A stretch of DNA of 64,000 nucleotides from Salinivirga cyanobacteriivorans. GTDB lineage: Bacteria; Bacteroidota; Bacteroidia; Bacteroidales; Salinivirgaceae. The stretch spans positions 2,661,501 through 2,725,500 of the forward strand of contig NZ_CP013118.1 of NCBI RefSeq assembly GCF_001443605.1, read 5' to 3'. Made by a program: the position numbers and the translations under genes. The notes beneath the pieces are model-generated. The model had not been told where the DNA came from, ran no database searches, and saw only the letters and a list, made by a program, of their open reading frames with translations. Shown here in pieces: positions 36,185 to 49,527 of the stretch. Numbering within the stretch: position 1 is the first letter of the stretch; each line of letters opens with the position of its first letter.

Positions 36185-36189
36185 AAAAA

Positions 36190-36210
36190 GCCTGAGAAAA
36201 AATCTCAGGC
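36190..36210. terminator. Bidirectional terminator between convergent units
   Basis: GCCTGAGA (36190-36197) pairs with TCTCAGGC (36203-36210) around AAAAA. On the minus strand the stem is followed by a T-run (CTTTTTTTA), so it mainly ends the gcvH transcript; on the plus strand the tail is TCATTTG. Confidence 0.75.
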
Positions 36211-36238
36211 TCATTTGTAAACCACGAGTTGGTTTTTA

Positions 36239-36616
36239 TTATTCTACTTCGTTTTTATAATCATCTGCAGAAAGCAGATCGTTTAGTTCGTCTTTATTAT
36301 CAACTTTTATTTTAATCATCCACCCTTCGCCGTAGGGATCTTCGTTTACGGTTTCTGGAGCATCTTCGAGTTTTGGGTTCACTTCAGCAACTTCTCCGCT
36401 AATTGGCATATACATATCTGATACTGTTTTAACAGCCTCAATTGTACCAAATACATCCCTTTTTTGGAGCGATTCACCTTCGGTTTCTACCTCAACGAAT
36501 ACTACATCGCCAAGTTGTTCCTGTGCAAAATCGGTTACTCCTACAGTAGCAGTATCACCATCTATTTTCACCCATTCGTGATCTTTTGTGTACTTAAGAT
36601 TTTCGGGAATATTCAT
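36239..36616 (-). CDS. gcvH: Glycine cleavage system H protein
   Basis: A 125-residue lipoyl carrier that shuttles the aminomethyl group between the P, T and L proteins. The lipoylated lysine is Lys63 in GTIEAVKTVSDMYMP. The start NIPENLKYTKDHEWVK and the end GEGWMIKIKV are typical. gcvP, gcvT and lpd are not in the window. The gene lies 82 nt downstream of the last sensor of the five-gene array on the same strand; whether it shares that transcript is unclear. Confidence 0.97.
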   Translation of the reverse strand: MNIPENLKYTKDHEWVKIDGDTATVGVTDFAQEQLGDVVFVEVETEGESLQKRDVFGTIEAVKTVSDMYMPISGEVAEVNPKLEDAPETVNEDPYGEGWMIKIKVDNKDELNDLLSADDYKNEVE

Positions 36617-36698: not shown

Positions 36699-39083
36699 TT
36701 AATTATTTTTTAATTCACTTACTTTATTCATGAGTTGTGTGATTTCTTTGTCGAGCTTTACTTTATGGGTAATGTCGGTGGCAATATTCAGCACTCGGTC
36801 AATTTCTTCATCTTCGAAAATCGGAATATAGGTTTCACTAAGATATATGGTTTGGTCTCTTTTGGTAATTTCATGAATCCGTTTTTTAGTAACTCCACTG
36901 ATAACTTCCTGCCAAAATTTAAGAAATCCTCTTCTTGATGCATCATCTTGTGTCACAAATGCATCCTGGAACTTACCAATCATGTGTTCAGCTGCATGCC
37001 CGTAGGTATTTGCCATTAACTCATTAATTCTGATAATACGTCCGTCCAGGTCATATTCGGCCATCATGGTGGTATTTTGTAAAGTGTTTCGGATGGCCGA
37101 AAGCTCTGACTCCCGCTTTTTGGCCTCTTCCTGTGTAGCCTGCATCTCTTCCAGGTTTTGGCGCATCTCTTCTTCTTGCTGTGATAGTTCATCTTTGAGC
37201 TGTTCTGATTGTTTTAACAGCTGAGCAGTGCGAATATTGGTTTTAACACTCGATACTGTAGCAGCAATACTTTCTGCCAGTTTCTCGGTAAATTCAATTT
37301 GATGGTTTTCAAATGGCTCATAGCCCATAAGCTCAAGTAAACCAAATGGTTCATCGTTCATTAACATAGGTACAATGAGCAAATTATTGGGGGCCGGATC
37401 ATCAGTTTTACCAGTAGTTAAAGTAGCGAAGCTATCTGGTGTGTTGGTAAGGTGTATGGTGCTTTTTTCACTGATTGCCCTACCTACAAGCTCTTCACCT
37501 TCTTTTACTTTTTTGTCTATAAGTTTTTGACTGCCGAATGCATGAACGGCCTTGAGATCAAAATATGATTCATTTTCGTCTTCTTCAATTATAAAAATTG
37601 CACACTGCGGTATCTCCATATATTCGCAAATATTTTTGGCGATATTTACAGAGAACTTTTGCATGTCATCGTTATCTTCCCGCAAAATTTCGCCAAATTG
37701 AGCAAGTCCCTGTGTAACCCAGGCCTGTTTGCGGTCTTTTTCGCGTTTTTCTTCTTCAAATTTCCGTGCCTCTTTCAGGCTCTCGCGCATGTCTACCAAT
37801 GATTGCCCAAGGAAATCGTTTTTACTAAGTAACTGGTGCTCGCGGTCCAGATTTCCTTCTCCTATTTGTTTGGCAAAACCTGCTGTTTCATTCAGTCCGT
37901 CAATTAGTTTGTTGACGCTTTGTGCCATATCATTAATTTCATCGTTGTATTTGCCTTTTACTTTAAGGCTTGTTTCGATGTTACCTTTGGCAATTTCTTC
38001 TAGCACTCTGGTGATGTTGGTAACAGGTCTGGTAATTGACCTTGCTATTATGTAAATAAAGATGCTTAGTACGGACAAGGCTACCAATCCGGCAATGATG
38101 CTTAATATAAAACTATTTTTGGCCACACTGTTTAGTTCGCTGATTGGCACTGCAATACCAAAAACCCATCTTTCACTGGCTTTGCCAATGGTGAGTGGGC
38201 TCATAGTAAAATAGGTTTCCTGTCCGGTAATAGGATCTACGTCTGTGAAGCTATAATTATTATTCCACTGGGCATTTTGAAGGATTTCTTCAGAGGTTAC
38301 CTTGCTGTATTTTAAGGTATCTAGCTTTTGCCCCACCCATTTTGAAGACCTGTGTGCAACTATACTTCCATCGTGAGCAATTAGAAAAGCGTAACTTTCA
38401 TCGAATGGTTTAATTTGTTCAGCATATTTTTGGAGGCTGTCTAATGAGGCATCGGCACCAATAACACCGAGGAAGCGACCATTGTAAATTAATGGCACAA
38501 TCATGTTTGTTTGCAAAACAGCATACGCTTCGCCTTTTCCGTAACTGTAATAGTATGGTGCAAGAAGGGTTTGCTTACGGTTTGTTTTAGGTGTAGTATA
38601 ATAATTGCCCTGAAATAAAGGTCCTGAGCTTAGGCCTTCGAGTTTAATAGAGTCTCCTTCTTTGTAGTAGGTAGGGGAGAAGTTTCCGATATAGGTATTT
38701 CCTTTAACATTAATGTATAAACTGTCGAAATTATCTATTGTATTGGGTTCCCATATGGTCCATAAACTTAAAATGTCGGTTTTCTTCTTGAGGTTATATT
38801 TAAGGATATTCATGAAGTTTGCTCTGCGGGCTGCAGAGTCAAGTGACTCAAAGGAGAGTAGAAAATTATTGAGACCCTGGGCAGTGCTCATATATTTTTG
38901 CATTTCTCCTTTTATTTGCCGGGCATTAACTTTTGCAGTAAGATCGGCGTACTCCACGCTTTTATTGTAGGCGTTTTTCTTTATTTGTAAACCAATAACC
39001 AGAATAGATGTGCCAAATATAACAAACGAGGTTGTTAGTATTAGCAGCAGCATCTTTACGTATAGTTTCATTCTTACCTTCAT
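36699..39083 (-). CDS. Cache-HAMP-GAF-PAS membrane sensor, paralogue 5 of the array
   Basis: A 794-residue membrane sensor. TM1 is at about 10-30, an extracytoplasmic double Cache domain at about 45-320 (core GRFLGVIGADASL, YAFLIAHDGSIVAH), TM2 at about 325-347, HAMP at about 347-400 (RSITRPV start), a second HAMP-like helix pair (GEGNLDREH to MRESLKEARK), GAF at about 480-625 (EELVGRAISEKSTIHLTNTP), a coiled coil (ELSQQEEEMRQNLEEMQ) and a PAS at about 680-790 (EYDLDGRIIRINE). It ends there: no kinase, cyclase, phosphatase or MCP signalling domain. It is the last gene, 105 nt after its neighbour, more than between other members. It must signal through a partner or act by dimer contacts. Confidence 0.85.
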   Translation of the reverse strand: MKVRMKLYVKMLLLILTTSFVIFGTSILVIGLQIKKNAYNKSVEYADLTAKVNARQIKGEMQKYMSTAQGLNNFLLSFESLDSAARRANFMNILKYNLKKKTDILSLWTIWEPNTIDNFDSLYINVKGNTYIGNFSPTYYKEGDSIKLEGLSSGPLFQGNYYTTPKTNRKQTLLAPYYYSYGKGEAYAVLQTNMIVPLIYNGRFLGVIGADASLDSLQKYAEQIKPFDESYAFLIAHDGSIVAHRSSKWVGQKLDTLKYSKVTSEEILQNAQWNNNYSFTDVDPITGQETYFTMSPLTIGKASERWVFGIAVPISELNSVAKNSFILSIIAGLVALSVLSIFIYIIARSITRPVTNITRVLEEIAKGNIETSLKVKGKYNDEINDMAQSVNKLIDGLNETAGFAKQIGEGNLDREHQLLSKNDFLGQSLVDMRESLKEARKFEEEKREKDRKQAWVTQGLAQFGEILREDNDDMQKFSVNIAKNICEYMEIPQCAIFIIEEDENESYFDLKAVHAFGSQKLIDKKVKEGEELVGRAISEKSTIHLTNTPDSFATLTTGKTDDPAPNNLLIVPMLMNDEPFGLLELMGYEPFENHQIEFTEKLAESIAATVSSVKTNIRTAQLLKQSEQLKDELSQQEEEMRQNLEEMQATQEEAKKRESELSAIRNTLQNTTMMAEYDLDGRIIRINELMANTYGHAAEHMIGKFQDAFVTQDDASRRGFLKFWQEVISGVTKKRIHEITKRDQTIYLSETYIPIFEDEEIDRVLNIATDITHKVKLDKEITQLMNKVSELKNN

Positions 39084-39188
39084 CCGTTTATGATTTTGAT
39101 TTTTAATGGTCGGTGGCTTAGCTCGTTGAAATTGGGCGGCAATTCAAAATAAACTGAGCTCCTGACCACAAGCTAAATTACGTCTGGG

Positions 39189-41972
39189 TTATTTAACTAT
39201 AATTTTTTCTAATTCTGTTTGTGCATTTTTCCAAATGGTGGCAATTTCCTGGAGCAGGTCCTCAATGTTTTCAGTATCTACGCCAGTTGCAGCAATTGTT
39301 TCAATTTTTTTAGCCATTTCAACCACACGGCTTAATCCAAGGTACGACATTTTGGTTCTGAAATTTCCAATTTTTGATCTCAGCAGCCTAAGGTCTGATT
39401 TGGCTATATTTTGTAATTCATCTAATTGTTTGGGAATAGTGTCAACATATATACTAATAATATTCTGAATTTTGCGTAAGTCATTTTTGTATACTTTTCT
39501 CAAATGCGTTAGGTCAATGTATTCGAATCGACCTTCTTGTTCCATTATTTCATTAATATTGATGGATTTTTTCGCAGCTTCTTTTTTTCCTCCATGCTTT
39601 TTTACAAGTTTCTCGTATTCAGTTTTTAGTTCTTGCAATTGTTTCTCTTTGCGTTTTTCTTCTGAAATATCAATAGCAATGTTGAGCACTTTGTAGGTTT
39701 TGCCCTCTTTATTAATTAGCGGGTAATAGTACTCTTTTAAATAGAAATCCCGGCCCAGATGTTTTGAGTAGAAATTATTTGTTGCTGTCTGTCCTTTTTC
39801 AAGCTTGTTCCAAATTTCCTCATAGTTGTGTTTAACCTGGGCACTGCTGAATTCGTATGATCCGATTTGTTTATTTATTACCTGTTCTTGTTTCAGTTGA
39901 AACAGGTGCAGCATATTTTCATTTATATCGGTAATTTTTCCATCCGGATCGTATTCAATATATAATAGTGTGCTTTTGGCTGCATTAATGAAGTTTTGAA
40001 TTTTATTTTCTCTTTTTGTGGCCTCTTCTTGCATGGCTTGCAGTTCTTCCATGTTTTGGCGCATTTCTTCTTCCTGCTGAGCAAGTTCGTCGGCCTGTTC
40101 TTTAGATTCTTTCAATAATTCTGCTGTGCGGGCATTTATTTTGGCCGATGAAATGGTCGATGCAATTGAAACTCCGATTTTTTCAACGAACTGTATCTGG
40201 TATTCCTGCATTCTGTTCAGAGATCCTATTTCAATTATACCGATTACATCTTCATTAATAATCATAGGAACAACCAATGTACTGCCGGGTTTGGTATTTC
40301 CTAAACCGGAGATAATCGGTGCATGATCTTCGGGTATATCATCCATATAAATCCGGTCTTTTTCAAGCAGGCATTTGCCAACCACACCCTCGTTGGGTTG
40401 TATGGTTTTATGCAGCATTTTTTCTTTATCGAAGCCAATTGAGGCAACAAGTTCGAGATATTGCTGATCTTTTTTACCTTCGGTAAGGTAGAGGCCTCCC
40501 TGATGGGCGCCAAGGTAATCGACGAGTGTTGAAATAATTTTGTTGGTAAGTTTGGCGAGATTGTCATTATCCTGCCTTAAGATGGTACCAAAGAGGTTGA
40601 TGCCTTCTGAGGCCCATTTGCTTTGTTCTTCTTCTTTTTGGCGATGGACTTCTTCTGCTTTGGCCTCTTTGAGCGAGTTACGCATTTCAAGCACAGCGTT
40701 ACCCAACACATCTTTATCGCTCAATGGTGTAAATTCGTGGTCAAAATTGCCGTTTTTAATTTGATTGGCAAATTCAACCGTATCTTTAAATCCTTTAATA
40801 ACCGTATTGACCGAATGACTCATTTGCTCAATTTCATCACCCGTTTTAATACTGATGTTATCTATTTTTCTTATTTCGCCCAGCGATAGTTGCTGCAATA
40901 CTTTTGTTGTTTTATTGATTGGTTTTATAATTTGGTATGCAACAAGCAGTGTAACTATTATGAGCACGATCAGTCCGTAGATTCCTACTTTTCTTGAATC
41001 TTCAAAGTGGCTTTCAGCTTCGGTAATGATGTTTTGAAGTGGTACATTAATGGCTATACCCCAGTGAGAATTGCTCTTGCCAAATGTAACGGGAATAATG
41101 GTAGTAAAGAACTCTTCGTCCGTGACCTGGTCTGTTTTAACAAATTTATTGTATGTCCCATTTCTAATTTGAGGAATGATATTGTGTTGTATATTTAAAA
41201 TACTATCAGTTTCGGCAAAGTTTTTACCCAGGTATGCTTCATTCGGGTGCGCTACAATAAAACCTTTATTTGAGAGAATATAGGCATATCCTTCAAAATT
41301 TTGATTCAATGAATCAACCAAAACCTTGAGTTGCCGGAGACTAATGTCTGCACCCACCATACCCACAAAACTACTATCCTGCATAACGGGTACTATAATC
41401 GAGGTCATTAGTATTTCTTCACCTGATCCTCCTGAATAAACGTCTGTATATGGTTCTGTAATACCTTCTCTTGGGTTTGCTTTATAGTCGTAATACAGGC
41501 TTGCAGTATCATCTCCATAGGTGTCGAGGGTGTCGATTGTGGTGGAGATGAAGCCCCCTTCTCTGAAATAGATATAGGATAACCTGCCATAGGGTAGGTT
41601 CCAGTCGGGTTCAATGTATTGTCTTTCCCAATTGTCCCAAACTGAAATATACCTGGGGTTTTGCTTTAGCAGACGCTCCAGGGCGCTGTTAAAAAAAGTA
41701 CGGTATGATTCAGGATCTAATTCATCGAATTTTTCAAATGTGTTGGCGTAAGTTCTGAATATTTCAAAGTCGGCTTCAAATAAGTTTTTAACTCTGGCCG
41801 TAACATTCTCGGCTTGTTGGCCTGCTGTTTTTTTGGCCAGTTCAATGGCAACTTCCTTGTAGTCGTAATTTATATAGCGGATGGTTATAAGATAAATAAT
41901 ACCGGCAACCAGTACTACGCCAATTAGCAGTCTGATGCTTAAGCTAAATCTTATATTTTTTAATTGATTCAT
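39189..41972 (-). CDS. Cache-HAMP-GAF-PAS sensor with degenerate Hpt domain, paralogue 4
   Basis: A 927-residue member of the array. Order: TM1 (about 12-30), double Cache (FVGMVGADISL, YAYILSNKGFIVAHP), TM2, HAMP, HAMP-like helices, GAF (EGVVGKCLLEKDRIYMDDIPED), coiled coil (DELAQQEEEMRQNMEELQ) and PAS (EYDPDGKITDINENML). It continues, unlike its neighbours, into a charged linker and about 110 residues that resemble an Hpt phosphotransfer domain: FEYIDLTHLRKVYKNDLRK, IYVDTIPKQLDELQ, then KIGNFRTKMSYLG. Where active Hpt domains have His in AHKLKxxxxxLG, this one has Gly869. The start is the ATG at 41972, not the TTG at 41975. The Hpt-like tail could bind a response regulator or kinase without phosphotransfer. 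Confidence 0.82.
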   Translation of the reverse strand: MNQLKNIRFSLSIRLLIGVVLVAGIIYLITIRYINYDYKEVAIELAKKTAGQQAENVTARVKNLFEADFEIFRTYANTFEKFDELDPESYRTFFNSALERLLKQNPRYISVWDNWERQYIEPDWNLPYGRLSYIYFREGGFISTTIDTLDTYGDDTASLYYDYKANPREGITEPYTDVYSGGSGEEILMTSIIVPVMQDSSFVGMVGADISLRQLKVLVDSLNQNFEGYAYILSNKGFIVAHPNEAYLGKNFAETDSILNIQHNIIPQIRNGTYNKFVKTDQVTDEEFFTTIIPVTFGKSNSHWGIAINVPLQNIITEAESHFEDSRKVGIYGLIVLIIVTLLVAYQIIKPINKTTKVLQQLSLGEIRKIDNISIKTGDEIEQMSHSVNTVIKGFKDTVEFANQIKNGNFDHEFTPLSDKDVLGNAVLEMRNSLKEAKAEEVHRQKEEEQSKWASEGINLFGTILRQDNDNLAKLTNKIISTLVDYLGAHQGGLYLTEGKKDQQYLELVASIGFDKEKMLHKTIQPNEGVVGKCLLEKDRIYMDDIPEDHAPIISGLGNTKPGSTLVVPMIINEDVIGIIEIGSLNRMQEYQIQFVEKIGVSIASTISSAKINARTAELLKESKEQADELAQQEEEMRQNMEELQAMQEEATKRENKIQNFINAAKSTLLYIEYDPDGKITDINENMLHLFQLKQEQVINKQIGSYEFSSAQVKHNYEEIWNKLEKGQTATNNFYSKHLGRDFYLKEYYYPLINKEGKTYKVLNIAIDISEEKRKEKQLQELKTEYEKLVKKHGGKKEAAKKSININEIMEQEGRFEYIDLTHLRKVYKNDLRKIQNIISIYVDTIPKQLDELQNIAKSDLRLLRSKIGNFRTKMSYLGLSRVVEMAKKIETIAATGVDTENIEDLLQEIATIWKNAQTELEKIIVK

Positions 41973-41987
41973 CAATCTTCGGATTTG

Positions 41988-44732
41988 TTATTTTTTCTTG
42001 ATTGTGTCGGTTATATCAATGGCCAGGTTTATGACTTTATAAATATTTCCATTTTGGTCTCTTACTGGTATGTACACTTCTGAGAAATATAGGTTTTTGC
42101 CATTTGCCAGAATATGTTGAACAATTTTTCTGGTTTTGCCGGCAGATAAATCTTTCCATAAATTATCAAATTCTTTTTTCTTTTCGGGGTCAGTTTCAAA
42201 GGCACCCTGCTTTACGCCTAGCATATCAGATTTTTTTGCTCCAAGCAAATTAAGGAAGTTATTGTTAATATCAATAATTTTTCTGTTCATATCATACTCA
42301 ACGTATAGCGAAACGTCTTTTACCCCGTCTACAAGTAACCGCATTTCTTCCTTACTGGCCTCGGATTTTTCGTTGAGCTCTTTAAGTTGTTCCATTTTTT
42401 GTTCAACATCCTCCTGGGCCTTTTTCATTTCAGTTAAATCCCGCAGAGCTCCTACAAATTTTGTCTCATTATTCAACTTGCCTTCTTCAAGCCTTAATTC
42501 AACCGGGAATTTTCTGCCTGATTTATGCATGCCCATTACTTCCCTTGATTTTCCAAGGACATGTCTTTGTCCGGTTTTTAAGTATCTTTTGATGTAATTA
42601 TCATGCTCTCTGGCATTTTCTCCATACATGATTAATTTGACATTTTGGCCAATGGCTTCTTTTGAGCTATATCCAAATAATTTTTCAGCAGCGGGGTTCC
42701 AGAGTTCTATTATGCCGTTGCTATCAATTGTAACTATGGCATCCACGATATTATCAAAAATCATTTGAGTCTTAGCCTGGCTTTCTTTCAATGATTCTTG
42801 TGTAGCCTGTATTTCTTCCATGTTTTGCCGCATCTCTTCTTCTTGTTGGGCTAATTCATCGGCCTGTTGCTGTGATTGTTGCAGTAGTTCTTCTGTGCGC
42901 TGATTGATTTTAGTGGTAGAGATATCACTGGCCACGTTTTCACCTGCTTTTTCTAAAAACTCAACTTGATATTTTTCGAATTTATTAAAAGATACAAGTT
43001 CAATTACACCCAGCACCTGCTCGTTTACTTTAAGCGGTATGAGAATAAGGCTTCTTGGTTTGCTCTCTCCCAGACCTGAATTTACGGTTACATAGTTTTC
43101 AGGTATTTCTCTGAGGTGAATTGTAAGTTTTTCATGGGCACATCTGCCAACAAGACCTTCTTCAGGTTTTACTTTATCGCGCATGAGTTTCTCCCGTTCA
43201 TAGGCTACAGCTGTAATCATTTCATAATAAACATCGTTTTTGTCGCTGTCGTTTAAAACATAAATAGCGCCCATGGCTGCATCTACGTATTTTATTATTC
43301 TGGAAAGTATGGAGTAGGATAATTCCTGAAGGTTTTTAGATTGCCGCAATAAATCGTTAATCATACTGTATCCATCGGTAGCCCATCGTCTGATCTCTTC
43401 TTCTTTTTTACGCCGGGCTTCGTCCTCTTTTGCCTGTTTTAGGTTATCGCGCATTTCGAGTAGTGCTGAACCAAGCATATCTTCATCGCTGAGCTTATGA
43501 AAATCTACCGACAAATCTCCATTTCCGACAGATGATGCAAATTCGGCTGTTCTGTGTAGCCCTTCTGTTAATTGGTTTACAGAATTGGCCATTTCACCCA
43601 CTTCATCTTTTGTATTTATTTTTAACAGGTTGTTTTTGTCTATTTTGCCGTCTGAAAGCTCTTTTAATATTTTGGTGGTTTTTATAATTGGGCGGCTAAT
43701 ACTCCGGGCTATTAACGAAATGATGAAACCCATCACAACTAAACCCAGGGAACCGATAAAAATTCCTGTTTGTAAAAATGTTGCTGTTCTGTCCTCGATT
43801 ATGGTGGATGGAAACGCTACGGCCAGGGCCCAGTTAATATTGGCTTTTTTAATTTTGATAGGCGAAAAAGTATATTGATATTCAGCTTGCATTAGCGTGT
43901 CGTGGTGGGTGAAGGTAAAAGTTTTTCCACGGTCAATCCGCTTGTTTATATTGCCATCTGCAGTGAAAATTGAATCTACATCGCTAAGTTTTTCTCCAAC
44001 CCACTCTTTTTTCGGGTGTGCTACTATGGTGCCATCTGTAGAAAGTATAAAGGCATAACTGCCATTGTATGGCTGTATGGAGTCTGTAATCGACTGGAAA
44101 TAATCCATATTGACATCGGCTCCGGCGAGGCCAACAAATTCGTTGTTTTTTAGAATGGGGACAGAAATATTTGTGTTTAAAACTGCATCTTGTTCGTTCC
44201 CTGTATAGGAAAAGAGTTCCGGATTACTTATAAAATGGTTTTTATTGGTTTTAATGGAATAGTAATTACTTGCGTAATCATCTCCCTCAAGGTTTCTTTT
44301 AGCATCGAAAAGTTTAATTACATCTCCTTCCCTGTAGTACCCTCGCATAAGCCGTCCATAATCATTATTGTAGGTTGAATCGATGTATTTAAGTTCGAAA
44401 CTCGTTGCTACTGATATATATTGCGGATTGTTTTCAAGAATAGCTTTTTGCTGGTCTAAATATATTTTTTCCCAGGCCTCGAATGTTTCCATTTTGAAGG
44501 TGGAGCCCGCATCTGCTAGCACATCAATGGCTTTAAGGTCTGAATCAATTACAGATTTTACAAGGTTGGCTTTTTCTGCTGCTGTTTTTTCGACAATTCT
44601 AAAGGTATCTTCTTTAGTACTATTAACTGTTTGTATTATTACAGCACCCAATGAGATTAAATAAATTAACGTGGCTCCACTGAGCAGATAGACCAACATG
44701 CGGGTGTTAATATTAAATCGTATTTTTTTCAT
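41988..44732 (-). CDS. Cache-HAMP-GAF sensor with two PAS domains, paralogue 3
   Basis: A 914-residue member of the array. Order: TM1 (LLSGATLIYLISLGAVIIQT), double Cache (FVGLAGADVNM, YAFILSTDGTIVAHP), TM2, HAMP, HAMP-like helices (GNGDLSVDFHKLSDEDMLG), GAF (EGLVGRCAHEKLTIHL), coiled coil (DELAQQEEEMRQNMEE), then an extra canonical PAS (VDAIVTIDSNGIIELWNP, AEKLFGYSSKEAIGQNV) that the other members lack, a short helix, and the terminal PAS shared by all (EYDMNRKIIDINNNF). The extra PAS belongs to the class often found before kinases, but none follows. Gap to the next gene is 12 nt, so translation is probably coupled. Confidence 0.85.
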   Translation of the reverse strand: MKKIRFNINTRMLVYLLSGATLIYLISLGAVIIQTVNSTKEDTFRIVEKTAAEKANLVKSVIDSDLKAIDVLADAGSTFKMETFEAWEKIYLDQQKAILENNPQYISVATSFELKYIDSTYNNDYGRLMRGYYREGDVIKLFDAKRNLEGDDYASNYYSIKTNKNHFISNPELFSYTGNEQDAVLNTNISVPILKNNEFVGLAGADVNMDYFQSITDSIQPYNGSYAFILSTDGTIVAHPKKEWVGEKLSDVDSIFTADGNINKRIDRGKTFTFTHHDTLMQAEYQYTFSPIKIKKANINWALAVAFPSTIIEDRTATFLQTGIFIGSLGLVVMGFIISLIARSISRPIIKTTKILKELSDGKIDKNNLLKINTKDEVGEMANSVNQLTEGLHRTAEFASSVGNGDLSVDFHKLSDEDMLGSALLEMRDNLKQAKEDEARRKKEEEIRRWATDGYSMINDLLRQSKNLQELSYSILSRIIKYVDAAMGAIYVLNDSDKNDVYYEMITAVAYEREKLMRDKVKPEEGLVGRCAHEKLTIHLREIPENYVTVNSGLGESKPRSLILIPLKVNEQVLGVIELVSFNKFEKYQVEFLEKAGENVASDISTTKINQRTEELLQQSQQQADELAQQEEEMRQNMEEIQATQESLKESQAKTQMIFDNIVDAIVTIDSNGIIELWNPAAEKLFGYSSKEAIGQNVKLIMYGENAREHDNYIKRYLKTGQRHVLGKSREVMGMHKSGRKFPVELRLEEGKLNNETKFVGALRDLTEMKKAQEDVEQKMEQLKELNEKSEASKEEMRLLVDGVKDVSLYVEYDMNRKIIDINNNFLNLLGAKKSDMLGVKQGAFETDPEKKKEFDNLWKDLSAGKTRKIVQHILANGKNLYFSEVYIPVRDQNGNIYKVINLAIDITDTIKKK

Positions 44733-44745
44733 TGCACTGGTGCTT

Positions 44746-47094
44746 TTAGTCCTCTTTTTTGTTTTTGAGGTGTGTAATGTCTATAGCTATGTTCACTACT
44801 CGCTGGGGTTCTCCATCATTATCCTTAATCGGTGTATAGACTTCTGACAACCACCTTGTTTTGTTATTTATTTCAATTTTTTGTTCTTGTTTATGGGGTA
44901 TTCCTTTTCGCATCTTTGCCCATAATGTTTCAAAATTTTTGATACGCTCTTCATCTTCTCCAAGTTCGAAAAAGCCTTGTTTTTTACCGATAATTTGCTG
45001 TCTGGGCAACTCAAGTAGCTGTGCATAAGCATCATTAATGTTTGTGATGTAGCCTTCCATGCTAAACTCGGCTACATAGGCAAGTGAATTAATGGCTGTA
45101 ATCATTCCGGTCATTTCTGCTTCACGTTTTGCGGCTTCTTCCTGTGTAGATTGCATTTCTTCCATCTGTTGCCTGAGTTCTTCTTCTTTCTCAGTAAGTT
45201 CTCCGGCCTGGCTTTTGGTTTGCTCAAGTAGTTTGCTTGTGCGCTGACTGATTTTCAGCGATGCTATTGTAGATGCAATGCTTTCGCCCGCTTGCTCAAC
45301 AAATTCTATTTGGTATTTTTCCATTTCATTGAATGAAATAATCTCAATAATGCCCATAACTTCCTCATTGAGCATAAGTGGGACAATTAACAGAGCTCTG
45401 GGATTGGCTTTCCCAAGGCCCGAGGTTATATTGACATAGTTGTCAGGGATTTCAGTCATGTAGAGGGTTGCCTGTTCATATGCCGCCCTTCCTATGAGGG
45501 TTTCTCCCATTTTTATGGTTCTGTGCAGTGGTTTTTTCCTTCCCCAGGCTAAGGCAGAAGTAGCCTCAAAAGTAATGTCCTCTTCCGATTCTACTTTCTC
45601 TTTTTCAGCTACTACATAAAGTGCGCCCTGATTGGCATTAAGGTAATCAGCAATGTACTTAACTACCTGATAGGAGAGGTCTTCCAGGTTGCCATGCTGA
45701 CGCATCAACTCATTTATTTTAGCAATACCTTCGGTGATCCATTTTTGTATTTGGTCAGCTTCTTTTCGTTTTTTCTCGTCTTCTTCAGCTTTTTGAAGGC
45801 TTTGACGCATATTGAGCAATGCGTTGCCAATAACATCATCTTCGCTAAGCTTTTCAAATTCTACATCCAGGTTGCCTTTGCCAATTTCTTCTGCAAACTC
45901 TGCTGTTCGTGCCAGGCTATGTTTCAGCCCGTTTACATCAAGCGAAATACTTCCAATTTCGTCTTTTGTTTTAATTCTCAGCTCCTGCTGTGTATTGATT
46001 TTACCAGCTGCCAGTTCTTTTAGCAGACTGGAAATGTTAATAAGCGGACGTGTAATGTTCCGGGCAATAATCCAAAGTACAAAACCTAAAATGATGATAC
46101 CTGCTAAGCCAATAAGCAACGATTTTTGCATGTTTTGGTTGGCTTGTATTAGCATTTGTTTATAAGGTACCACAATGCTCAAATACCAGGGTGTATCAGT
46201 GTCACCAATAAATACAGGAGCAAATGTTGTATAATATTTTTCGTTGTTTTTATCCCGGTTAAATGAAAATGTTTTGCCTGTTTTCATTCGTCGTTCAAAA
46301 TTATATCGCTCTGCGTCTGCCTGGTTGTCTTTAATCAGGTTGCTACCTATATTATTGGCATCAGGGTGATATATTATGGTTCCTTCATGGCTAACAAAAA
46401 AGGCATAACTGTTTTTGTAAGGCTTTATCGTTTTAACGAGACCTGAAAAGCGCTCCAGCTTCAGATCTATTCCCATTAGACCTAAAAAGCGTGTGCTTTG
46501 TAATACTGGCACACAAATACTGGTTTCCAGTATTTCTTCTGACTTGTCTTCTGTGTAGGAGTACCAATATGGTTCTGTAATTATATTTTTTTTATTTATT
46601 TTTATTTTGTAATAAAGACCTTCTTCGTCATCTCCTTCGGTGTCAACAGTATCAATTTTACGTTTTATTTCATTATCAACTCTATAAAAGTTTGTGCGCA
46701 CTCTGCCGTAATTGTTAGGATAGTTTTCATCGATGGCAGCTAGCTCCCAGTGCATCCATATGGATTGGAGGTGTTGATTTTGTTCAAACACACGTTTTAG
46801 CATTGGTGGTAATACCTGCTTGCGAATACTATCTTCATAAAGCACAAAATCCTGAAAGGCTTTGCCCAGTGTATGTGTTAACATAAAGTCTTTATTAAGC
46901 TCGCTTTCAATGTCAGAAGCTTTTTTTTGTGCTATTTCAATTGTCAGCCGTTTTGCTTCATCCAGGGCCATTTGCCGGGTTTCTATGCTAACGTATAAAA
47001 TGGTTAAGAGAAAGACTACTGTAGCACTACTTAATATAAAAAGCTGCAGTTTAGCCTGAATACTTTCTTTTATTTTATTGATTAACCCTTTCAT
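44746..47094 (-). CDS. Cache-HAMP-GAF-PAS membrane sensor, paralogue 2
   Basis: A 782-residue member. TM1 at about 15-35, double Cache at about 45-320 (FLGLMGIDLKL, YAFFVSHEGTIIYHP), TM2 (IGLAGIIILGFVLWIIARNITRP), HAMP, HAMP-like helices (GKGNLDVEFEKLSEDDVIG), GAF (ETLIGRAAYEQATLYMTEIP, then GLGKANPRALLIVPLML), coiled coil (GELTEKEEELRQQMEEMQ) and PAS (EFSMEGYITNINDAY). The lipid-facing and cytosolic parts align well with its neighbours, while the Cache domain is the most divergent part, as expected if each senses a different ligand. Gap to paralogue 3 is 13 nt, and to paralogue 1 is 35 nt. Confidence 0.85.
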   Translation of the reverse strand: MKGLINKIKESIQAKLQLFILSSATVVFLLTILYVSIETRQMALDEAKRLTIEIAQKKASDIESELNKDFMLTHTLGKAFQDFVLYEDSIRKQVLPPMLKRVFEQNQHLQSIWMHWELAAIDENYPNNYGRVRTNFYRVDNEIKRKIDTVDTEGDDEEGLYYKIKINKKNIITEPYWYSYTEDKSEEILETSICVPVLQSTRFLGLMGIDLKLERFSGLVKTIKPYKNSYAFFVSHEGTIIYHPDANNIGSNLIKDNQADAERYNFERRMKTGKTFSFNRDKNNEKYYTTFAPVFIGDTDTPWYLSIVVPYKQMLIQANQNMQKSLLIGLAGIIILGFVLWIIARNITRPLINISSLLKELAAGKINTQQELRIKTKDEIGSISLDVNGLKHSLARTAEFAEEIGKGNLDVEFEKLSEDDVIGNALLNMRQSLQKAEEDEKKRKEADQIQKWITEGIAKINELMRQHGNLEDLSYQVVKYIADYLNANQGALYVVAEKEKVESEEDITFEATSALAWGRKKPLHRTIKMGETLIGRAAYEQATLYMTEIPDNYVNITSGLGKANPRALLIVPLMLNEEVMGIIEIISFNEMEKYQIEFVEQAGESIASTIASLKISQRTSKLLEQTKSQAGELTEKEEELRQQMEEMQSTQEEAAKREAEMTGMITAINSLAYVAEFSMEGYITNINDAYAQLLELPRQQIIGKKQGFFELGEDEERIKNFETLWAKMRKGIPHKQEQKIEINNKTRWLSEVYTPIKDNDGEPQRVVNIAIDITHLKNKKED

Positions 47095-47129
47095 GGTAAT
47101 ACTTTAATCTGATGTTGATTTTTATGCTT

Positions 47130-49430
47130 TTATTTCTTTTTTGTGTGTGTAATATCGATTCCAATATTTACAACTTTGTATGGTTCTCCTTCGGCGTTTA
47201 TTACGGGTTTGTATGTTTCAAGTAACCATACATACGCGTTACCTGATTTAATTTTTTGTTCCTTGGTTATTGATTCGCCTGCTCGCAGCTGCTCCCAGGT
47301 TTCTTCAAAAGCTTCCTGGTCGACGGTTCCGGCAAAGCTGCCCTGTTGCATCCCAATAACCTGGTCTTTGGGTTTGGCCAGCAATACTTCGAGGTTTTTA
47401 TTCATGTCAATAAGGTGCCCGTCCATATCAAATTCAGCCACATATGCGATGTCGTTTACTGCTTCGTGCAGCGCGGTCATTTCGTGTTGTCGCTGTTGGG
47501 CTTCTTCCTGGGTTGCTTTCATTTCTTCTACATTTTGCCTCATTTCCTGCTCTTGTTGTGCGAGTTCGTCGGTTTGCTTTTGTGACCGATGCAGTAGCTT
47601 CTCTGTTTTTTGGTTAATTCTTACGTTGGCAATGGTTGCTGCGAGATTACCTCCAATTTGTTCAACCATTTTTATCTGGTAATCGGCAAATTCGTTAAAT
47701 GAAATTAACTCTATTACTCCAAGTACTTCTTCGTTGTTTTTTATGGGGACCAGTAATATTGTGCGGGGGTTGGCATCACCCAGGCCTGTTTTGATGTTCA
47801 CGTATTCTTCTGGTATTTCGGTCATGTATACCGTTAGCCCTTCATATGCACATCGTCCTACTAAACCCTCTTCGTTTTTTATCTTTTTTTCAATGAGTTT
47901 ATTTCTACCATATGCAATGGCTGAAATGAGTTCATAGAAAACTTCATCTTCCTCATCGTTTTTAACGTATATTCCGCCCTGTGATACGTTTAGGTAGTCC
48001 AACAGGTATTGTAGCGTACTGAATGTGAGGTTTTTGATGTTTTGGTTGTGTTTCCTGAAAATATCGCTGGTTTCAGTTATGGCCTGGTTTATCCAGTTAT
48101 TTATTTCATCTTCTTTTTGTCTTTCCTGCTGCTCTTTTCTGGCTTTTTGCAGGTTTTCGCGCATTTCTACAAGCGATATTCCGAGTTCATCCTCTTTATC
48201 TTCTATAGTGAGTTCCTGATCTAAATCTCCACGTCCCAGATGTTTTGCGAACTGGTTTTTTTGGTTTAGTTTCTCGATGGTTTGATTTAAGGCTTCTGCC
48301 ATTTCCTCAATTTCATCGCCTGTTTCAAGTTTGAGTTTATTACTTGTTTTTATTTCTCCCCTGGATAGTTTGTTTAATTGCTTTGTTACCGACTGAACAG
48401 GTCTGGAAATATTAATGCTTACAAAATAGATGACGATACCCAGCAGAATTAAGCCAACTATTCCGACTATAAAGGAGACGTATAGGTTTTCATTGACTTG
48501 TTGAATTATAGACTCTCTTGGGACGGTAATTCCCAGGTACCAATAGGTGTCCGTTCGGCTTATTTTTATTGGGAAATAGCTTACAAATCGTTCTTCCTGG
48601 CCACGATCATTGACAATAGAAAAGGGTTTCCCCAGTTTAATTTTTTGATAAATATTAAAATCCGGCTTGCTTGTAGGATTTTTGGGAATAAAGGTGTTTA
48701 GTTTGTCGTTTTCGGGGTGCCCTGCATATTTTCCGTTATGTGAGATGAGGAAGGCATAGCTCCCTTCCAGGTCTTCTAACTGAATTCCGCTTACAATTTC
48801 CTGAAAGCGGTCCAGGGTAACATCAACGCCGATTATACCTACAAACTTTTTTTGATCCATGATCGGAGCCTCGTAGGTTGTCATAATTTTCTTATCAGCT
48901 TTTTGTTCGCTGAAAGCATCGGCATATATTTCAGAAATAAGTTCTCTGGCCAGGGCTTTATCTTTGGCGTAATATTTATTGTCACCATCCAGACTTCGTA
49001 TATCTACAAGTCGTTTCATTTCACCTTTTTCACGCAACCTTGTGTTTGTAATGCGACCCGTAGGGCGATTCCATGTGCTGTCGACGACATTCAATTCCCA
49101 GCTGTCCCAGAGTTGATAAAATTCGGGATTCCCCTGAAATACATGATCGTAAATTTGATTGACCAGTTTTTGGTACTGGTCAGTTTCGAGGAACTTATAG
49201 GTTTTAAATGCCAATGCAAGGGTTCTTACAACTGCAAAATCTTCATTAATTAATACTTTAAGTTGGTTGGCGTGTTTTTCTGTTTGTGCCTCTATAAGTC
49301 GTGTTTGATTTTCGTATGAAGATTGCCGGTCTTTAAATGCAATGTAGCCAATGGCTCCTGTAAATACCAGTACAGAGAGTGATATAATAATAAACTGAAT
49401 TTTATGGCGTAAGCGAAGTTTGATTTTCAT
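47130..49430 (-). CDS. Cache-HAMP-GAF-PAS membrane sensor, paralogue 1 (first gene of the array)
   Basis: A 766-residue member. TM1 (IIISLSVLVFTGAIGYIAF), double Cache (FVGIIGVDVTL, YAFLISHNGKYAGHP), TM2 (VGIVGLILLGIVIYFVSINISRP), HAMP, HAMP-like helices (GRGDLDQELTIEDKEDELG), GAF (EGLVGRCAYEGLTVYMTEIP, GLGDANPRTILLVPI), coiled coil (DELAQQEQEMRQNVEEM) and PAS (EFDMDGHLIDMNKNL). The protein stops just after the PAS. A terminator for trpS lies upstream (49480-49527), so this gene starts its own transcript; no clear TAnnTTTG box was found in the remaining 60 nt, the closest being TAAATTAG. Confidence 0.85.
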   Translation of the reverse strand: MKIKLRLRHKIQFIIISLSVLVFTGAIGYIAFKDRQSSYENQTRLIEAQTEKHANQLKVLINEDFAVVRTLALAFKTYKFLETDQYQKLVNQIYDHVFQGNPEFYQLWDSWELNVVDSTWNRPTGRITNTRLREKGEMKRLVDIRSLDGDNKYYAKDKALARELISEIYADAFSEQKADKKIMTTYEAPIMDQKKFVGIIGVDVTLDRFQEIVSGIQLEDLEGSYAFLISHNGKYAGHPENDKLNTFIPKNPTSKPDFNIYQKIKLGKPFSIVNDRGQEERFVSYFPIKISRTDTYWYLGITVPRESIIQQVNENLYVSFIVGIVGLILLGIVIYFVSINISRPVQSVTKQLNKLSRGEIKTSNKLKLETGDEIEEMAEALNQTIEKLNQKNQFAKHLGRGDLDQELTIEDKEDELGISLVEMRENLQKARKEQQERQKEDEINNWINQAITETSDIFRKHNQNIKNLTFSTLQYLLDYLNVSQGGIYVKNDEEDEVFYELISAIAYGRNKLIEKKIKNEEGLVGRCAYEGLTVYMTEIPEEYVNIKTGLGDANPRTILLVPIKNNEEVLGVIELISFNEFADYQIKMVEQIGGNLAATIANVRINQKTEKLLHRSQKQTDELAQQEQEMRQNVEEMKATQEEAQQRQHEMTALHEAVNDIAYVAEFDMDGHLIDMNKNLEVLLAKPKDQVIGMQQGSFAGTVDQEAFEETWEQLRAGESITKEQKIKSGNAYVWLLETYKPVINAEGEPYKVVNIGIDITHTKKK

Positions 49431-49479: not shown

Positions 49480-49527
49480 TGAAAAAAACAACGCAGTAAT
49501 TTTCATTTTAATTTTTGAATTACTGCG
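49480..49527 (-). terminator. Rho-independent terminator of trpS
   Basis: CGCAGTAATT (49492-49501) pairs perfectly with AATTACTGCG (49518-49527). Read on the minus strand the stem is followed by TTGTTTTTTTC. It separates trpS from the sensor array. Confidence 0.7.

Follow-up and report, generated by a model that had tools for sequence, protein, structure and literature searches.

Introduction

The stressosome is a partner-switching system composed of RsbR paralogues, RsbS and RsbT, alongside the SpoIIE-type proteins RsbU and RsbX. A second described switch is SiaABC(D) of Pseudomonas aeruginosa, in which, according to published accounts, the phosphorylation of SiaC is set by SiaA and SiaB (PMC7647112) and the cyclase SiaD is activated by unphosphorylated SiaC, residues Y65, N67, T68 and S69 of SiaC being named (PMC8457831). 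An array of five adjacent sensor genes is described here from the minus strand of a 64,000-nucleotide stretch of the Salinivirga cyanobacteriivorans genome (the window; contig NZ_CP013118.1, positions 2,661,501 to 2,725,500). The gene neighbourhoods in related genomes suggest that the five sensors report to a shared protein phosphatase switch, and on balance the array is probably a set of inputs to a SiaABC-like partner switch via the GAF-SpoIIE phosphatase encoded at another locus of the same genome, L034. No description of such a system was found in the titles and abstract beginnings of the openly licensed PubMed Central literature searched.

Domain architecture of the array proteins

An earlier note on this DNA had placed five adjacent sensor genes on the minus strand, and their open reading frames (ORFs) do sit at the positions that it gave. 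By ORF and Pfam analysis, array genes 1 (47130..49430; 766 residues), 2 (44746..47094; 782 residues) and 5 (36699..39083; 794 residues) code for sensors with the domain order dCache-HAMP-GAF-coil-PAS, where coil denotes a coiled coil. Array gene 3 (41988..44732; 914 residues) codes for a dCache-HAMP-GAF-coil-PAS-PAS protein, its two PAS domains being matched by Pfam and its architecture also read from a structural model, while the product of array gene 4 (39189..41972; 927 residues from the ATG) shows, by ORF, Pfam and phmmer comparison, the common order followed by a degenerate HPt domain. An alternative in-frame TTG start at 41975 would give a gene 4 product of 928 residues. The intergenic gaps had been noted as 35, 13, 12 and 105 nt; the first, second and last stand, and the third is 15 nt from the ATG and 12 nt only with the TTG start.

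The dCache_1, HAMP, GAF and PAS families were matched by Pfam in all five proteins, with the dCache of gene 1 (40.4 vs 45 bits) and the HAMP of gene 4 (23.6 vs 25 bits) below their curated cut-offs. The Cache-HAMP-GAF-PAS plan proposed earlier is thus upheld, while the separate second HAMP that formed part of it is not matched by Pfam, except for a second stretch in gene 1. Helices occupy this position in the AlphaFold model of the gene 3 protein (60 sequences; mean predicted local distance difference test score (pLDDT) 80.5, predicted template modelling score 0.47), in which helices flank a mixed alpha/beta extracytoplasmic part, followed by a long helical segment, GAF, coil and PAS. The model is poor for the first PAS (residues 644-758) and predicts nothing folded beyond the last.

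HisKA, HATPase, GGDEF, EAL, MCPsignal and SpoIIE were not matched in any of the five proteins by Pfam at E up to 1, and STAS was likewise not matched by Pfam. A hidden domain of a methyl-accepting chemotaxis protein (MCP), kinase, cyclase or phosphatase was ruled out, none appearing in Pfam to E=1 or in NCBIfam to E=0.1. The NCBIfam matches comprise PAS boxes and partial matches to the sensor parts of kinases, phosphodiesterases, an MCP and SiaA, all of them far under cut-off except for the PAS box, that of gene 1 lying just under its own. The claim that no array protein ends in an output domain therefore holds, by Pfam and NCBIfam, for four of the five, and the degenerate HPt of gene 4 had been missed.

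This HPt domain (39189..39590, minus strand; residues ~795-927) was recognised through phmmer, alignments, modelling and Foldseek. The gene 4 tail matches the HPt-like C-termini of hybrid kinases encoded in this genome, with whole-sequence phmmer E of 3.5e-16 (L049), 1.6e-8 (L047) and 4e-4 (L048). The kinase ends were located with PF01627, above cut-off in L047 and L048 and at 23.6 vs 24.6 bits in L049, the best match; the Pfam Hpt model did not match the tail itself, in which the domain is seen only by comparison with these kinase ends. A model of the tail (pLDDT 89.7; 11 sequences) has the four-helix HPt fold, and the Foldseek hits of ranks 1-17 are all HPt proteins (best E 0.0029, none below 0.001; template modelling score 0.69). 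At the phosphohistidine column, the window protein and seven relatives carry G, N, G, I, V, S, N and V, respectively, such that the His is missing in all eight proteins with the tail. The tail of array gene 4 is an HPt domain without the phosphoryl-accepting residue.

The phosphatase operon and its orthologues

Locus L034 lies outside the window, at 2.12 Mb of the single 4.81 Mb contig that forms this genome, and encodes an 879-residue GAF-PAS-PAS-SpoIIE protein related to the sensors through its HAMP-GAF-coil. The operon has the order CheR-CheR-CheB-GAF-phosphatase-SiaB-SiaC-TerB/ABC transporter, where the small GAF membrane protein matches the sensor family more weakly. The closest NCBIfam model to the phosphatase is SiaA (NF038263; E 1.4e-48, residues 612-877, 166 bits vs the equivalog cut-off of 700). 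The adjacent SiaB and SiaC match NF038262 and PF09345 above cut-off but fall short of the cut-offs of the SiaB and SiaC equivalog models. A SiaA-type SpoIIE/PP2C phosphatase with adjacent SiaB and SiaC is thus found at L034 and not in the window. The gene behind SiaC codes for a TerB-ABC-ABC2 transporter (L034:12501-15545), a possible output. A paralogue of the transporter gene, cut by its stretch (L185:1929-3353), stands beside a second SiaB-SiaC pair, and a tandem SiaC pair occurs behind a 365-residue protein beginning with a SiaB-like kinase (L193:1076-2957).

Orthologous neighbourhoods were collected from 71 genomes. Of these 72 stretches, 71 contain a phosphatase gene model and were counted as operons; L238, with none in its stretch, was left uncounted, and the phosphatases of G158, G161, G185 and G231, fragmented or at contig ends, fall outside the count. 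SiaB, SiaC and the ABC gene lie downstream of the phosphatase in 65, 65 and 63 of the 71 operons, respectively. The upstream run, defined by the same strand and gaps up to 600 nt and reaching the stretch edge in 20 operons, includes CheR of either kind in 46 and CheB in 44. An output-less sensor of the family is encoded in the same run in 41 of the 71 operons (35 without six short, cut or weak ones at L225, L262 and L273-L276), where the chance of an in-run sensor is about 2-3% by a rough estimate from ~15 family genes among 3,500 and six positions. The sensor gene is directly beside the phosphatase in 17 of the 41, in the order CheR-sensor-CheR-CheB-GAF-phosphatase in 14 and in other orders in ten, and the linkage extends over at least five families of the order. 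At four named loci (L145, L151, L158 and L162), a sensor is divergent from a gene whose SpoIIE half is 30-37% identical to that of L034. Some in-operon sensors contain five or six PAS stretches, and one, at least 2397 residues long and starting at a contig edge (L255:3-7196), has 14, with no output domain.

Distribution across the order

Among 247 sampled genomes of the order, an orthologue of the GAF-SpoIIE phosphatase occurs in 73 and a sensor match (limit E 1e-45) in 86; both are present in 73 and only the sensor in 13. Nine of the 13 sensor-only genomes are at least 90% complete. The match in one of these, G104, covers the Cache side only, with no GAF-coil found, while the other eight, which have a GAF-coil member and no phosphatase, each encode at least one form fused to HisKA-HATPase. 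This fusion was recognised by Pfam in one gene each of G081, G108, G138 and G207, and in G025, G149, G234 and G236 by a local profile built from the four Pfam-confirmed genes. The earlier proposal of many inputs feeding one shared partner gains support from both sides: relatives of the sensors are found in one gene run with a SpoIIE phosphatase that shares their GAF-coil, and kinase-fused forms appear in the examined genomes where the phosphatase is missing. Mixed dimers, the other possibility raised in the note, may also form. SiaC is encoded in 102 of the 247 genomes; 100 genomes have a sensor match at 1e-20, and 83 of these encode SiaC.

The GAF-coil family

Twelve HAMP-GAF-coil proteins are encoded in this genome and up to 34 family matches occur in one genome. 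Besides the array five, the 12 comprise two adjacent proteins with C-terminal hemerythrin, three single sensors, one three-PAS sensor and one protein ending in SpoIIE. The hemerythrin-ended pair is located at about 3.504-3.510 Mb (L029:7261-13325; Pfam for one, the other by eye; both are included in the family tally below), and its hemerythrin, at the usual output position, is a possible oxygen or redox input. For the wider family, 110 non-redundant output-less members (array five included) were scanned singly at E 0.001, after removal of 70 phosphatase-type and four kinase-fused forms, of incomplete ORFs and of redundant members (identity to another of 60% or more). HisKA, HATPase, GGDEF, EAL, MCPsignal, STAS and SpoIIE were matched in none of the 110 (19 + 23 families matched, complete lists), while GAF_2 was matched in 109 and hemerythrin in three.

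Conservation is strongest in the cytosolic half. Sixteen columns are invariant in the 60 sequences of A1, all of them within residues 431-645 of array gene 3, and seven fall in the coil stretch 631-645, where a shared partner may bind. The SiaC-binding residues of SiaD were also compared by eye with the coil, and no convincing match was seen.

Proposed mechanism

The five membrane receptors, having no output of their own, would sense signals outside the cell through Cache and inside through GAF and PAS, and would transmit them in trans, through the common HAMP-GAF-coiled-coil, to another protein. The best candidate for this partner is the GAF-PAS-PAS-SpoIIE phosphatase of L034, which has the same GAF-coil and which the sensors would contact physically. 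The phosphatase would oppose the kinase SiaB and thereby determine how far SiaC is phosphorylated, presumably on Thr, and the sensors may shift this balance in either direction. SiaA would, in effect, be split, its sensing half multiplied into many receptors that act on a single phosphatase. The CheR and CheB encoded alongside it may tune receptor gain, putatively also that of the array receptors, and the output is perhaps the co-encoded TerB-ABC transporter as first candidate. A GGDEF enzyme is an unlikely output here because no GGDEF match was found in the genome (the control was positive in eight of 14 genomes).

A bolder and tentative extension is that this is a chemotaxis-like receptor system built on Ser/Thr partner switching, in which many interchangeable output-less receptors could form mixed assemblies through the constant HAMP-GAF-coil, be tuned at non-classical sites by a CheR/CheB set of their own, and act through a SpoIIE phosphatase, SiaB and several SiaC in place of CheA/CheY. 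The occurrence of the phosphatase orthologue in 73 of the 247 sampled genomes points to a widespread signalling system that combines receptors, methylation enzymes and a protein phosphatase switch, and the phosphatase is a specific candidate for the partner of a large class of bacterial sensors that lack an output end.

Contrary evidence and alternative explanations

Several observations, given here and with the alternatives below, weigh against assigning the array to the L034 switch. The array and the L034 operon are about 0.58 Mb apart in this genome. No sensor is present in the operons of the window's own family (L034, L170, L171, L173 and L175; for two of these five, the stretch starts only a short way upstream or at the end of a contig), and the link of the array to the phosphatase is therefore one of homology, the in-operon sensors belonging mostly to other branches of the tree. 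CheR or CheB of the L034 operon type is encoded in the run of only 23 of the 41 sensor-holding operons. This genome encodes a large partner-switch network without cyclic di-GMP synthesis of the known kind, with 13 SiaC genes, no GGDEF match and about 31 SpoIIE genes (from 33 rows, some of them partial or sharing a gene), and the partner could consequently be another of these proteins. The finding that no sampled genome has only the phosphatase is partly automatic, as the phosphatase itself matches the sensor query at 3.9e-51. Four genomes, 74-88% complete, contain output-less sensors with no phosphatase found and represent gaps or real exceptions, and G149 has, besides its kinase-fused form, one 620-residue member without a kinase. 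A further 14 genomes without the phosphatase have weaker sensor matches (1e-20 to 1e-45), the check for kinase fusions having covered only the 13. The coil motif was rejected as an exclusive docking signature, its short form fitting 85 of the 110 sensors, 28 of the 70 phosphatase-type and one of the four kinase-fused proteins, with similar coils in the last two groups; shared and incomplete as it is, the motif alone is no proof of a dock.

It is possible, though unlikely, that the sensors instead act in trans on one or several separate histidine kinases, via GAF/PAS/coil contact or with the degenerate HPt as a receiver decoy. Kinase-fused versions of the same sensor exist, array gene 4 ends in such an HPt, and at six named loci (L090, L094, L099, L127, L142 and L143) arrays of three or four sensors start two genes behind a co-oriented kinase-like gene, with a similar layout and more intervening genes at L096. 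The kinase-like gene was checked in L094 and L127, where a small metallopeptidase-like gene, identified by eye, lies between it and the array. However, kinase-fused forms number four among 114 non-redundant members and come from genomes without a GAF-SpoIIE gene (the loci were fetched by similarity and are a biased sample), a sensor is found in more than half of the phosphatase operons (41/71), and no kinase gene adjoins the array among the window ORFs, as named by eye.

A role as chemotaxis receptors, acting through CheA/CheW by joining MCP arrays, appears improbable. The three-PAS relative is encoded near the chemotaxis operon of this genome, where a transposase-like gene (L033:10301-11467) separates it from cheB, suggesting that sensor and operon may once have been continuous, as in L266. 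In G034, G147 and G241, a cheR-histidine kinase-cheD-cheB run leads into a sensor, which clusters with the three-PAS sensor of this genome (support 0.97), and then into CheR-CheR-CheB-GAF-phosphatase-SiaB-SiaC; in G246, cheY-cheA-cheW-cheR-histidine kinase-cheD-cheB leads directly into GAF-phosphatase-SiaB-SiaC. These four junctions of chemotaxis genes with the phosphatase-SiaB-SiaC operon are at L266, L269, L270 and L265. The frequent CheR and CheB of the phosphatase operons (46 and 44 of 71) also favour such a role, but the MCP signalling domain is absent from all 110 members and the genome has seven ordinary MCP genes of its own. The canonical methylation consensus was found in all seven of these MCPs, but in none of the 12 family proteins of this genome and in two of the wider 110, as in shuffled sequences. 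Methylation of the coils by CheR/CheB at the classical consensus is thus not supported by the motif count, and these enzymes would act at other sites or on other proteins.

There is equally little probability that the sensors have no common partner and are independent ligand or redox binders that arose by local duplication (for storage, buffering or scaffolding), tied to the Sia operon only by descent, a view favoured by the hemerythrin of 3/110 members and by a sensor-partner interaction that is so far a predicted one, but opposed by the conserved cytosolic half, with its 16 invariant columns in A1 (and none in the 50 more divergent sequences of A2), and by the operon linkage across families.

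Genomic setting of the array

The five-gene row is also present, with its order kept, in G001 and G002 of the same genus and in G003 and G005 of another genus of the family. The row is adjoined by trpS in G002, G003 and G005, with a contig end at that side in G001, and by gcvH in G001, G002 and G005, both gene names being presumptive ones given by sequence and not by family search. The named record L086, possibly the same genome as G005, likewise contains trpS, five sensors and gcvH, and the named contigs most similar to full-length array gene 4 include metagenome-assembled genomes of the Salinivirgaceae. The preservation of gene order and of the flanking genes across two genera is more than chance would give. 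In the GAF-coil tree, array positions 1, 2, 4 and 5 cluster by position across genera (support 0.96-1.0) and position 3 does not. In G002, array gene 3 is divided between two ORFs of 503 and 456 residues that overlap (L180:13345-16108), through either a sequencing error or a broken gene. Similar unlinked proteins had been said to occur in Bacteroidota, which agrees with the single sensor in 58 of 79 named loci and is incomplete, since the other 21 have a tandem run of at least two.

The hairpin claimed for the trpS side is present. Read directly from the sequence, a stem (49527-49518/49501-49492) with a loop of 16 and a T run on the minus strand, together spanning 49482..49527, lies behind trpS and is the likely upstream transcript border; the terminator scan was limited to loops up to 8 and hence does not include it. 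The gcvH gene (36239..36616, minus strand) is located 82 nt downstream of the array, and of the four further genomes examined, three have its homologue next to the array. The strongest minus-strand site of the scan is a terminator-like hairpin after gcvH (36188..36212), suggesting that the transcript may include this gene. Across the region, terminator-like sites show no excess (16 vs 13.5 in shuffles).

Comparison with known systems

Likeness to SiaABC(D) of P. aeruginosa is seen at L034, where the SpoIIE phosphatase, most similar to SiaA, is followed by a kinase of the SiaB family and by SiaC, and where SiaC has Y-F-N-T-A, in a by-eye alignment, at the place of the Y65, N67, T68 and S69 named in the published account (PMC8457831). 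In contrast to that system, sensing here is spread over many separate receptors, the array proteins lack the phosphatase of SiaA (no SpoIIE in the five by Pfam), the operon includes two CheR genes and one CheB gene and continues into an ABC transporter gene, and there is no SiaD-type diguanylate cyclase output, GGDEF being unmatched in the genome.

As in the stressosome, a number of output-less sensors combine a variable sensor half with a constant one and would converge on a kinase/phosphatase switch, although the sensors here are membrane Cache-HAMP-GAF-PAS proteins without STAS, in the five array proteins as in the 110 members. MCPs are likewise dCache-HAMP membrane receptors, and CheR/CheB occur in many of the related operons, but the sensors have neither the MCP signalling domain nor the methylation consensus. 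The combination of HisKA and HATPase_c that marks a sensor histidine kinase is absent from the array five and the 110 members. The Cache-HAMP-GAF histidine kinases L278-L281 of related genomes have the same Cache-HAMP-GAF-coil N-terminal part, but carry their own HisKA-HATPase, with three receiver stretches in three of the four. The array proteins are, by the tests made, members of neither the SiaABC nor the stressosome-type partner switch; their proposed mode of action resembles both.

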